A stretch of DNA of 64,000 bases from Bolinopsis microptera (taxonomy: Eukaryota > Ctenophora > Tentaculata > Lobata > Bolinopsidae). Under the pieces are notes generated by a model. The model ran no database searches, was not told the DNA's origin, and saw nothing but the letters and a program-made list of their open reading frames with translations. Shown piece after piece: positions 3,901 through 15,900 of the stretch; within the stretch, counting starts at the first letter, position 1; every line of letters starts with the position of its first letter. The position numbers were made by a program, and so were the translations under genes. The stretch covers positions 22,500,828 to 22,564,827 of the forward strand of contig NC_087076.1 of NCBI RefSeq assembly GCF_026151205.1. Reading direction: 5' to 3'.

Positions 3901-6900
3901 TTATTTATAAAATTATATATTAACTGTAATACGCCCGCTGGTGGATATAATCCACATCACCTCGACCCACGGGCGGAAAAATCGTATAGCACTCGGGCCC
4001 GATGGGCCCTCCGTGCTATACGAAAATATGTCCTCCTCGGGCTAGCGCCCTCGGGGACATATGAAATATTGCACGCGCGTGCGCGTGCAATATTTTGTTC
4101 CGCCCGCGAGTCTCCGGTGATATGTATATATATGCTTGAAAGCGGTTATATTGCACTTATATCCACCAGCGTGCGCTTTTTCGCATAGCGGGCTCTCACC
4201 AGCCCGCTGTCAAAGGACCCGATATCTCTACAGCCCGCTCATGATATAGCCCGCTAACAAGTGACATTTAATTTGACCAGTAGCAATATAGCCCGGAGTT
4301 CTCTAAAATATTTTCAGTTTCTGTATCGTCTCCATGTGAAATTCCTTAATACACTGACTATAATATATACATTTTATTTTTGTGTCCGGTAGGGCTGCTC
4401 ATGCAGCTCGTGAGCAGATGACATGATACTTTGATTTATATCAAAGTTATTATAACACACTACATAATAATACACATCAGCACTATAATCCCCCTATATT
4501 ATTGATATTCATCGTCACTGACATTACATTCATTATTCCCACGGCCCAGGAATGCAGTGCATCTCCAGCCCCTATATACGACACAGCCCTTTATGATTGG
4601 CTTACATTGAACACGTGACGTGTTACCATGGTTACAACAATTAGTGGCGACCTTTTCTAGAGTTGACTTTTATACAAGCTCCATTGTTTATTTATAAAAT
4701 TATATATTAACTGTAATACGCCCGCTGGTGGATATAATCCACATCACCTCGACCCACGGGCGGAAAAATCGTATAGCACTCGGGCCCGATGGGCCCTCCG
4801 TGCTATACGAAAATATGTCCTCCTCGGGCTAGCGCCCTCGGGGACATATGAAATATTGCACGCGCGTGCGCGTGCAATATTTTGTTCCGCCCGCGAGTCT
4901 CCGGTGATATGTATATATAGCACTGATATAAAGCTATAAGTCTGGCTTACCAATAGGACCATATTCGAAACGAGGTCGGTTAAGCTCTGGTGGCATTCCC
5001 TCCTTCAGAGTCAGGACATAGTTCAACAGTGAGTACGTCAACTGGGAGGGACATTTTAAGTAGGTAATAAAGTTACACTGCTCTTATAAATTAGTACTAT
5101 TCAGTGCAAACCTAAGAATTCCAAAAATCAATCAGAAACGAAAGAGCCTTAGGAATAAAGAACGGAATATATTTGATTGAAGAAGCATTTGTAAGCAAAT
5201 ACACATAGTAAAATAAGGTATTACCTTGTTTCGGACATTTTCAAGGAGACCCTCAATAATGAGCGAGACCCCCTGGTAGCCGAGTAGGTCTATAATAGCC
5301 GCGAAGTGGGGCTGTCCCACAAACATGCTGTATACCTCGTGGATGTGGTCGTACCCTTTTGAGACTTGCTGCAAAGTTAATATGTTGAGACTTGCTGCAA
5401 ATCACAGTTATTACTTTTAAAATGTGGTTTCCAAAATAAAAGTTTTTAAAGTATATCATACTATCATTTGTTAGAGCTTTCGCTGACGTTGAGGTGGAAA
5501 AAACAAGCCAATATCGAGTTTTGTAGCCACAATCGCCCCGGAATAAAGCAGTAAAGGATCACAAGATAGTTAAGTGTCATCAAACAAATGATACGACGTA
5601 TTCCAGGGTGATCTGCTGAAGACTCAACTAGTTTCGGCCTTTGAGGGCCATCCACAGGAGTGTCACCTCAAATTATTTGTTATATAGTAGTGTTGAAAGT
5701 ATTAAAACTTTAAATACTTTTAATACTTTTAATACTTTTAATACTTTTAATACTTTTATATTTAAAAATTATAAAAAAAGAGGGACCTTGGGGGGGGAAA
5801 TAGTTGGTTTGGGGGTATGGTGTGTATCATTTAAAAAGAACACAAATATAAAACAAACATTACTACTATTAGATAAAATTAAGGTTAGTATGAAAGTAAA
5901 AATGTTAAAATTTTAAGTAAAGGGCTTTTAAATAAGTATATAAAAAAGGTTAAATGGGATTTTTTTAAAGGGTTTTAATAAAAAGTAAAAATTTGTTAGG
6001 TTGAGGGGGTTTTGGTTTTTTTTTTTAATTTAAAGGAAATTAAAAAAATTAAATTATTAGTGTTAAGTAAAGGGGAAAAAGGTTTTTGATAAATAAGGGT
6101 ATGATGTAAAGTATATAAAAAAAAATAATTGTGTAAAGGTACCCCTTAAGTAAAGTTGAATTTTGAAGGTAGAGAACCATATCTTCTTCAAAACCATAAC
6201 AGGAACTGTTAGTAACTGTGTGATTCCCTGTGCACTGCCTCAGAGAATGCCATAGTCGTTCTTACAAACCTAGTAACAGGAACTGTTAGTAACTGTGAGA
6301 TTCCCTGTGCACTGCCTCAGAGAATGCCATAGTCGTTCTTACAAACCTAGTAACAGGAACTGTTAGTAACCTAGTAACAGGAACTGTTAGTAACCTACTA
6401 ACCTAGTAACAGGAACTGTTAGTAACCCTAGTAACATTCCCTGTGCACTGCCTCAGAGAAGCCATAGTCGTTCTTACAAACCTAGTAACAGGAACTGTTA
6501 GTAACCTAGTAACAGGAACTGTTAGTAACCTAGTACAGGGAACTGCTCAGAGAATGCCATAGTCGTTCTTACAAACTAGTAACAGGAACTGTTAGTAACC
6601 TAGTAACAGGAACTGTTAGTAACCTACAAACCTAGTAACAGGAACTGTTAGTAACTGTGGTGATTCCCTGTGCACTGCCTCAGAGAATGCCATAGTCGTT
6701 CTTACAAACCTAGTAACAGGGAACTGTTAGTACTGTGTGATTCCCTGTGCACTGCCTCAGAGAATGCCATAGTCGTTCTTACAAACCTATAACAGGAACT
6801 GTTAGTAACCTACTAACCTATTCCCTGGTGCACTGCCTCAGAGAATGCCATAGTCTTTCTTACAAACCTAGTACAGGAACTGTTAGTAACTGTGTGATTC

Positions 6901-12900: not shown

Positions 12901-15900
12901 GTGCACTGCCTCAGAGAACGCCATAGTCGTTCTTACAAACCTAGTAACAGGAACTGTTAGTAACTGTGTGATTCCCTGTGCACTGCCTCAGAGAATGCCA
13001 TAGTCGTTCTTACAAACCTAGTAACAGGAACTGTTAGTAACTGTGTGATTCCCTGTGCACTGCCTCAGAGAATGCCATAGTCGTTCTTACAAACCTAGTA
13101 ACAGCAACTGTTAGTAACTGTGTGATTCCCTGTGCACTGCCTCAGAGAATGCCATAGTCGTTCTTACAAACCTAGTAACAGGAACTGTTAGTAACTGTGT
13201 GATTCCCTGTGCACTGCCTCAGAGAATGCCATAGTCGTTCTTACAAACCTAGTAACAGCAACTGTTAGTAACTGTGTGATTCCCTGTGCACTGCCTCAGA
13301 GAATGCCATAGTCGTTCTTACTAACCTAGTAACAGGAACTGTTAGGTAGTAACCTAGTAACAGGAACTGTTAGTAACCTAGTAACAGGAACTGTTAGTAA
13401 CCTAGTAACCTAGTAACAGGAACTGTTAGTAACCCAGTAACAGGAACTGTTAATAACCTACTAACCTAGTAACAGGAACTGTTAGGTAGTAACCTAGTAA
13501 CAGGAACTGTTAGTAACCTAGTAACAGCAACTGTTAGTAACTGTGTGATTCCCTGTGCACTGCCTCAGAGAATGCCATAGTCGTTCTTACAAACCTAGTA
13601 ACAGGAACTGTTAGTAACTGTGTGATTCCCTGTGCACTGCCTCAGAGAATGCCATAGTCGTTCTTACAAACCTAGTAACAGCAACTGTTAGTAACTGTGT
13701 GATTCCCTGTGCACTGCCTCAGAGAATGCCATAGTCGTTCTTACTAACCTAGTAACAGGAACTGTTAGGTAGTAACCTAGTAACAGGAACTGTTAGTAAC
13801 CTAGTAACAGGAACTGTTAGTAACCTAGTAACCTAGTAACAGGAACTGTTAGTAACCCAGTAACAGGAACTGTTAATAACCTACTAACCTAGTAACAGGA
13901 ACTGTTAGGTAGTAACCTAGTAACAGGAACTGTTAGTAACCTAGTAACAGGAACTGTTAGTAACCTAGTAACAGGAACTGTTAGTAACCTAGTAACAGGA
14001 ACTGTTAGTAACCTAGTAACATGAACTGTTAGTAACCTAGTAACAGGAACTATTAGTAACCCAGTAACATGAACTGTTAGTAACCTAGTAACAGGAACTG
14101 TTAGTAACCTAGTAACATGAACTGTTAGTAACCTACTAACCTAGTAACAGGAACTGTTAGGTAGTAACCTAGTAACAGGAACTGTTAGTAACCTAGTAAC
14201 AGGAACTGTTAGTAACCTAGTAACAGGAACTGTTAGTAACCTACTAACAGTAACTGTTAGTAACCTAGTAACAGGAACTGTTAGTAACGTAGTAACAGGA
14301 ACTGTTAGTAACCTAGTAACATGAACTGTTAGTAACCTAGTAACAGGAACTATTAGTAACCTAGTAACAGGAACTATTAGTAACCTAGTAACAGTAACTG
14401 TTAGTAACCTAGTAACATGAACTGTTAGTAACCTAGTAACAGGAACTGTTAGTAACCCAGTAACAGGAACTGTTAGTAACCTACTAACCTAGTAACAGGA
14501 ACTGTTAGGTAGTAACCTAGTAACAGGAACTGTTAGTAACCTAGTAACAGGAACTGTTAGTAACCTAGTAACAGGAACTGTTAGTAACCTAGTAACAGGA
14601 ACTGTTAGTAACCTAGTAACAGGAACTGTTAGTAACCTAGTACAGGAACTGTTAGTAACCTAGTAACAGGAACTATTAGTAACCTAGTAACATGAACTGT
14701 TAGTAACCTAGTAACAGGAACTATAAGTAACCCAGTAACATGAACTGTTAGTAACCTAGTAACAGGAACTGTTAGTAACCTAGTAACATGAACTGTTAGT
14801 AACCTACTAACCTAGTAACAGGAACTGTTAGGTAGTAACCTAGTAACAGGAACTGTTAGTAACCTAGTAACAGGAACTGTTAGTAACCTAGTAACAGGAA
14901 CTGTTAGTAACCTAGTAACAGTAACTGTTAGTAACCTAGTAACAGGAACTGTTAGTAACGTAGTAACAGGAACTGTTAGTAACCTAGTAACAGGAACTGT
15001 TAGTAACCTAGTAACAGGAACTATTAGTAACCTAGTAACAGTAACTGTTAGTAACCTAGTAACAGGAACTGTTAGTAACGTAGTAACAGCAACTGTTACT
15101 AACCTAGTAACAGGAACTGTTAGTAACCTAGTAACATGAACTGTTAGTAACCTAGTAACAGGAACTGTTAGTAACCTAGTAACCTAGTAACAGGAACTGT
15201 TAGTAACCCAGTAACAGGAACTGTTAGTAACCTACTAACCTAGTAACAGGAACTGTTAGGTAGTAACCTAGTAACAGGAAACTTCAAGAAGATACAACAG
15301 AAACATCTTCTCGAGTAATAAACGATGACAGTATCAAAAAGTTCGAGAACGACATTTCTGCGGTAGACTGGAACTTGGTTAATAACTATGATTCTGTAGA
15401 TGAAAAATTTGAGGCTTTCGATAAAAAATATAGTGAACTATACGACCGAAATTTCCCAATTAAGGCAAAAAAGAGTAAACCAGGCCGCCGTAAAAACACA
15501 AAGCCGTGGATCCAAGAATGGTTACGGTGCGCATGTGATCGCAAAAATAAATTTTATGAAGATTTTGTCACAAACCCGACCACTGAAAATGATATTAGGT
15601 ACAAGAAAATGAAGAAATTTGTGAATAAACACGTGGATAAGGCCAAAAACAAATATTACAACGCGTACTTTACAAAATATTCTAGCGACAGCAGAAAACA
15701 ATGGCAAATGGTTAATAACTTGTTAAACAGAAAGAAAAAAGGCAAAATTAAGATAAACAAAATTAACTATAATGGGAGCGAGATAACAGATTCTCAGCAA
15801 ATTGCGAATAGCTTCAATGACTATTTCTGCAATATAGCTGAGACTCTTAAGAGAGAAAATGGTCTCGTATGCTCCGAGGGCCGGACTATCGTAACAGAAA

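Follow-up and report, generated by a model that had tools for sequence, protein, structure and literature searches.

Tandem copies of a CYFIP exon in an intronic minisatellite of the comb jelly Bolinopsis microptera: a candidate pool for one-copy splicing

Introduction

Coding sequence is carried by a number of coding and intronic variable number tandem repeats (VNTRs), among them the LPA kringle repeats, mucin minisatellites and D4Z4, which vary in copy number and either add in-frame repeats to the protein or carry whole open reading frames. Tandem duplication of exons underlies clusters of mutually exclusive exons, exemplified by the 48 variants of Dscam exon 6 (PMC6071210). Introns, too, have been described as products of tandem duplication, also across an intron-exon boundary, and the cases given for the Rogers model, in which the duplicated segment bears AGGT, are a potato RdRp gene and multiple 24-bp AGGT duplicates in fission yeast (PMC4974935). 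Here we analyze an intron of the CYFIP gene of the comb jelly Bolinopsis microptera in which a 53-nt exon, E22, recurs 45 times as part of a 77-bp tandem repeat. The analyzed stretch of 64,000 nucleotides, referred to as the window, corresponds to C5:22500828-22564827 of a 264.65-Mb assembly, and positions within it are preceded by w.

Similar to Dscam-type clusters, the CYFIP array consists of homologous exons in tandem that agree in length and phase and have weak splice sites, and only one of these exons can enter a good mRNA. In contrast to such clusters, the complete copies are nearly identical and provide no useful protein diversity, and they are separated by 24-bp spacers, with spacer-only satellite between groups of copies. 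The array shares with Rogers-model introns its AG/GT-joined tandem units and a duplication that crosses an intron-exon boundary, whereas here a complete exon with both splice sites has been multiplied into dozens of copies. As in the VNTRs, the tandem units carry coding sequence; however, successive CYFIP units do not share a frame, and a transcript can use just one copy. No earlier case of a satellite of identical exons was found in the literature, as judged by titles and the beginnings of abstracts among the entries listed, in a coverage that lacks most subscription journals.

A preliminary description, made from the letters of the DNA, had proposed that the exon itself has become the unit of a satellite from which splicing picks one copy. 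Judging from the sequence, we favor with modest confidence the reading that E22 of this gene exists only as satellite and is spliced one copy at a time, and the array is likely to be the exon pool of a working gene.

Results

The CYFIP gene and its exon array

CYFIP exons were first located with PF05994 (FragX_IP), the match to human CYFIP1 in the PDB (3p8c) and a human CYFIP2 sequence, and their placement was then refined with the Mnemiopsis leidyi orthologue P0001, which is 94% identical over the part searched. E-values were 7.4e-303 for the Mnemiopsis orthologue against FragX_IP and 5e-112 for the PDB CYFIP1 match. Thirty exons could be mapped on the minus strand, from E1 (w50250-50462) to E32 (C5:22461628-22461786), and splice sites were placed for 28 introns of 131 to 37,140 nt. 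The mapped exons account for P0001 except for two adjoining pieces, the E22 peptide and STLKGVPAYYTYVPK, the former of which was located in the array. An exon-wise search of the genome with PF05994 gave 12 matches, 11 of them at the CYFIP locus, confirming the gene as a FragX_IP member. A second CYFIP locus or a processed copy carrying E22 was dismissed, the twelfth match being only a lone E17-like exon. This diverged copy (L021, C10:5831002-5831145) retains an intron acceptor, and the matched stretch enters stop codons.

Two NCBI models for the gene, P0125 (isoform X2) and P0126 (isoform X1), are named CYFIP2-like. Isoform X1 contains 40 extra residues (SSNKGRR...FKT) between E30 and E31 that are absent from X2 and from Mnemiopsis P0001. 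On a further contig from ENA (P0121, 69,350 bases), an open frame is identical to E21 including MLCEYV and the following intron differs; its source is perhaps another Bolinopsis. The features of the intron that holds the array, and of its flanking exons, are:

w6217-13748, minus strand: 45 tandem copies of exon E22, of which 29 are complete and carry both AG and GT, from the window census and the 77-mer search
w6197-15280, minus strand: the whole array of 77-bp units and spacer-only 24-bp units, with one transposon-like insert
w8487-10544, minus strand: spacer-only 24-bp satellite, unit GTTACTAACAGTTCCTGTTACTAG
w13741-15280, minus strand: spacer-only 24-bp satellite belonging to the second block of the array
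w17964-21266, minus strand: spacer-only 24-bp satellite upstream of the exon copies in gene direction
w6217-7840, minus strand: the array's 3' part, where 8 of 18 exon copies show 1-nt indels and the sequence is likely poorly polished
w21499-21656, minus strand: exon E21, ending ...AAC AG/GTAAGG in phase 2, with a G-starting exon needed for Arg
w5225-5368, minus strand: exon E24, acceptor TTTGCAG/CAAGTC, phase 0
w11377-12623, no strand assigned: 1247-bp insert bounded by terminal inverted repeats, its 8-bp target duplication being TTACGAAC
w15281-17963, plus strand: retrotransposon resembling a long interspersed nuclear element, with reverse transcriptase (RVT_1) and an A-rich end, between satellite stretches

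The number of copies found by the census agrees with the approximately 45 of the preliminary description and with a genome search using the 77-mer, which gave 45 matches, all at C5:22507024-22514579 (w6197-13752); counts from this search are lower bounds, and very common words are skipped. The unit has 77 bp and is composed of E22 and a 24-bp spacer whose first bases are GT and last bases AG. The minus-strand anatomy is as described earlier: TTACTAG precedes the exon (G TTT GTA AGA ACG ACT ATG GCA TTC TCT GAG GCA GTG CAC AGG GAA TCA CAC A), which is followed by GTTACT or GTACTA. The E22 peptide is identical in Mnemiopsis P0001 and, as had been claimed for human, can be aligned with CYFIP1 (PDB sequence 3p8c). 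A chance resemblance of E22 to CYFIP is countered by this identical peptide in the right phase. Outside the array, neither the window nor a DNA search of the whole assembly yielded a second E22, and the latter by itself does not prove absence; the earlier statement that no other copy of the segment is visible stands to this extent.

Twenty-nine of the 45 copies are complete, that is, 53 nt long and free of indels with AG directly before and GT directly after, the donor being GTTACT in 23 and GTACTA in 6. Among these, 21 are identical and 25 encode the conserved peptide. Three variant types are synonymous, namely GCG for GCA in two copies (w12811-12863 and w12888-12940), TTC for TTT in one and TCT for TCA in one. 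The single amino-acid variant type, TTA for TTT (Phe to Leu) in four copies at w8019, 8442, 13273 and 13696, makes the start of the exon resemble the spacer more. Three synonymous types and one nonsynonymous type are too few to distinguish relaxed from concerted evolution, both of which had been suggested, and selection inside the copies was set aside for want of independent differences. That the peptide is kept proves little, because the copies look too young for decay.

The 16 incomplete copies comprise ten that are cut 3' (three of them also with a 1-nt indel), five with 1-nt indels only and one, at w11323-11375, that lost its acceptor to the 1247-bp insert. Four other cut copies (w12658, 10943, 7484 and 7024), free of indels, could offer an alternative in-frame form of 47 nt ending at GTTACT. 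Differences between copies had been reported as GCA/GCG variants, which are present, and as frameshifts, which are confined to one noisy stretch: 1-nt indels affect 8 of 18 copies below w7841 and none of 27 above, and look more like assembly noise than evolution. The 1247-bp insert, presumably hAT-like by its features, contains tandem repeats of its own of about 23 bp.

The spacer 24-mer GTTACTAACAGTTCCTGTTACTAG (sense strand) has 165 exact copies genome-wide, all on one strand of the E21-E24 intron, with 109 in w6197-15280 and 56 in w17964-21266. As the repeats, 77-mer matches and exact 24-mers alike, are confined to one intron and not spread over several loci, the exon-bearing tandem repeat is best classed as a locus-private minisatellite of head-to-tail, high-identity 77-bp and 24-bp units and not as a satellite in the narrow sense. 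Joints of the form TTACTAGGTTACTAAC (AG/GT) number 181 in w6197-21262, corresponding to the AG/GT-joined units of the Rogers model.

Reading frame and proposed one-copy splicing

The phase 2 end of E21 (AAC AG) is completed to Arg by the first G of E22, which itself ends in phase 1. The array exon had been proposed to be exactly the segment missing between the flanking exons, and its phase after E21 is correct; however, a further 44-nt exon is missing as well. One copy of E22 reads through, two or more lead to ...RESHSL followed by a stop, and none leaves the wrong phase, so that exactly one copy must be included, a stricter rule than the frame shift originally noted.

In the transcript, E21 would be joined to one E22 copy and the same copy to the next exon, E23. 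The 24-nt spacer lies far below the smallest mapped intron (131 nt), and adjacent copies should therefore not be joined to each other by splicing. Weak splice sites would give a low inclusion of each copy, such that mostly none or one is taken, and other splice products, with a stop or frameshift, should be lost.

Splice sites were scored with a matrix built from the other junctions of CYFIP, using leave-one-out for those junctions themselves. The E22 donor scores -0.66 (ACA/GTTACT) or -3.91 (ACA/GTACTA), compared with 2.4 to 11.4 for 29 other CYFIP donors, and the donor of the 47-nt form reaches 1.76. The E22 acceptor scores 0.37 (0.75 for a variant), and one of 29 other acceptors is lower.

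The missing exon E23 and the possible use of the array

Several observations weigh against the array as the sole source of E22. The weak donor could mean that the copies are unused. With independent inclusion, at most about 37% of transcripts would contain exactly one copy (N of 21 to 34), and an exclusion rule or much waste would be needed. A hairpin is predicted for the spacer, and folding of spacer and unit compared with shuffles gave z of -0.98, -1.47 and -1.84, with 34, 13 and 10 of 200 shuffles as good; the folding is not clearly beyond shuffles, which leaves docking-like RNA structure no more than a candidate, no search having been aimed at docking sites.

The remaining points concern the sequence beside the array. 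The 44-nt exon E23 (STLKGVPAYYTYVPK in Mnemiopsis P0001) is required between E22 and E24, given that E22 ends in phase 1 and E24 starts in phase 0, which calls for 3n+2 bases, and that it is present in P0001; the corresponding residues are also present in the relatives P0002 and P0003. A peptide scan did not find E23 in the window or in 50 kb downstream. The interval expected to hold it is:

w5369-6196, minus strand: no recognizable E23

The ungapped scan reached at best 28/81 in the window and 19/81 in w5301-6300. A degenerate edit-distance scan for a garbled E23 recognized none in the expected interval, with a best value of 13 edits that 1.3% of positions reach; on these two scans, the idea that E23 hides within the array or the neighboring intron was set aside. 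NCBI models P0125 and P0126 both begin at the first Met codon of E24, after the array. Taken together, the failure to find E23 and the start of these models make the stretch in which a unique E22 could sit untrustworthy, and a normal single E22 may have been missed through an assembly defect beside the array. Adjoining the array, the 391 bases of w5770-6160 include just 14 C as counted on the plus strand, along with long homopolymers; this shortage of C is weak as proof of bad sequence, satellites at w961-1181 being even poorer in C. The published B. microptera assembly, which we infer to be the one analyzed here, was made by wtdbg with gap closing by TGS-GapCloser and Illumina polishing, according to PMC10232365, where Iso-Seq and RNA-seq of the species are also mentioned. 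These methods may leave such a stretch poor.

The array could instead be dead, seeded by an E22 that still works as a unique exon between the array and E24 and is missing or garbled in the assembly together with E23. The necessary but missing E23, the NCBI models that begin in E24, and array splice sites that are among the weakest of CYFIP all speak for a dead array, as does the persistence of the true junction beside its copies at E3, E19 and E31 (see below). However, the last copy of the array (w6217-6269) is complete and continues into unique sequence, so that no further exon is needed, and a second E22 has not turned up in the searches described above. We consider a dead array unlikely.

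Two blocks and the number of copies

The array is organized as two successive blocks with 24 and 21 copies of E22 that are near-identical in parts. The stretches w13741-15272 and w8487-10030 match at 1531 positions, with a single substitution and two gaps, of 1 and 11, and w8064-8710 and w13318-13964 agree in 647 positions with 0 differences. A third comparison gave 827 matching positions with 3 substitutions and ten short gaps. In a fourth, 623 positions match and 7 are substituted; three gaps of 1 nt occur, one 77-bp unit is missing and a gap of 11 nt lies at the edge. The near-identity implies that the true copy count may be about half of 45, and the pair may represent a young duplication or two alleles joined.

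An array that is real but of inflated length, by two alleles joined end to end or by a wrongly extended repeat, is a tentative possibility that is compatible with one-copy splicing from a satellite-only E22. The near-identical parts, a difference between the blocks of a single 77-bp unit plus the insert, as might be seen between alleles, the assembly procedure cited above and the crowding of 1-nt indels in one stretch are in line with inflation. On the other hand, each block has its cut copies and variants, the two are less alike elsewhere (the third and fourth comparisons), and half of the array would still amount to 24 or 21 copies. The presence of the array is more certain than its copy number, its indels and the lack of a unique E22; a conserved coding exon has genuinely been amplified, probably to at least 20 copies per allele.

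Other splice-junction repeats in CYFIP

Recurrence of splice junctions was assessed with 24-mers (12 intronic and 12 exonic bases, up to 3 mismatches) at the 56 junctions of 28 introns. In their own introns, the E3 acceptor recurs 8 times, the E19 acceptor 6 times, and the E31 acceptor, E30 donor and E31 donor once each, amounting to 17 extra junction copies, with 0 in the other mapped CYFIP introns. Exon-internal 24-mers, used as a control, gave 5 recurrences, all in the E18-E19 intron, whose copies extend that far into the exon. Matches at E11, E16, E28 and the E30 acceptor were dropped, because with refined borders the shared bases fell within introns or became uncertain. The junction repeats retained are:

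w23121-23618, minus strand: six extra copies (85-bp units) of the E19 acceptor and the first ~41 nt; the true exon starts at w22227
w48567-49045, minus strand: eight extra copies of the E3 acceptor and the first ~15 nt; the true exon starts at w48535
w750-800, minus strand: the final ~20 nt of E30 together with its donor, copied once; the true exon ends at w858
C5:22464373-22464649: E31 junction copies in their own intron

These repeats bear on a further alternative, in which one fixed copy of E22, likeliest the 3'-most (w6217-6269), is used and all others are passed over, as the decoy acceptors of E3 and E19 would be. At the other junction repeats the true junction is the edge of the copies, and the 3'-most E22 copy is complete and adjoins unique intron, both of which would fit a fixed copy. 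However, 28 other copies are complete with both sites, in contrast to the E3 and E19 decoys, and the last copy is thus not visibly marked. Use of a fixed copy shares with our preferred reading the claim that E22 exists only as satellite, so that their likelihoods overlap; taken for itself, it appears somewhat unlikely.

A 21-bp unit, AACATTAGTAACCATGGTAAC, is arrayed in two CYFIP introns in opposite orientation (w37348-38821 and w40532-41370). Outside the gene, open frames at w61671-62182 (plus strand) look like exons of RTF2 (replication termination factor 2).

Discussion

The core TAACAGTTCCTGTTA is common to the outermost 24-mers on the two sides of the region, which suggests that short direct repeats probably once lay on either side of E22. 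Through unequal exchange between them, the exon may have been duplicated together with 24 bp; the beginning of the downstream intron (GT...) would thereby have been joined to the end of the upstream intron (...AG), which would explain why the spacer is an exact GT-to-AG piece. Exchange between repeated GTTACTA words could then have spread units with and without the exon.

A more far-reaching proposal combines an interchangeable satellite-only exon with compensation of weak sites by copy number: if the probability of inclusion p per copy is low, the fraction of transcripts that contain a single copy would grow with N until Np is about 1, and amplification would have been favored, not just tolerated. 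As part of the same proposal, the array would be one outcome of a junction-repeat habit in the gene, perhaps in the genome. As a whole, we regard this proposal as doubtful.

If the array is used, CYFIP would depend on an exon without fixed position, and splicing would pick one of about 20-45 near-identical exons that lie a few dozen bases apart, providing a natural test of how exclusivity persists without protein diversity. If it is unused, the locus would still show repeats growing from splice junctions in several introns of one gene, and junction-derived repeats would be a way for junction sequences to multiply and for gene models to go wrong.

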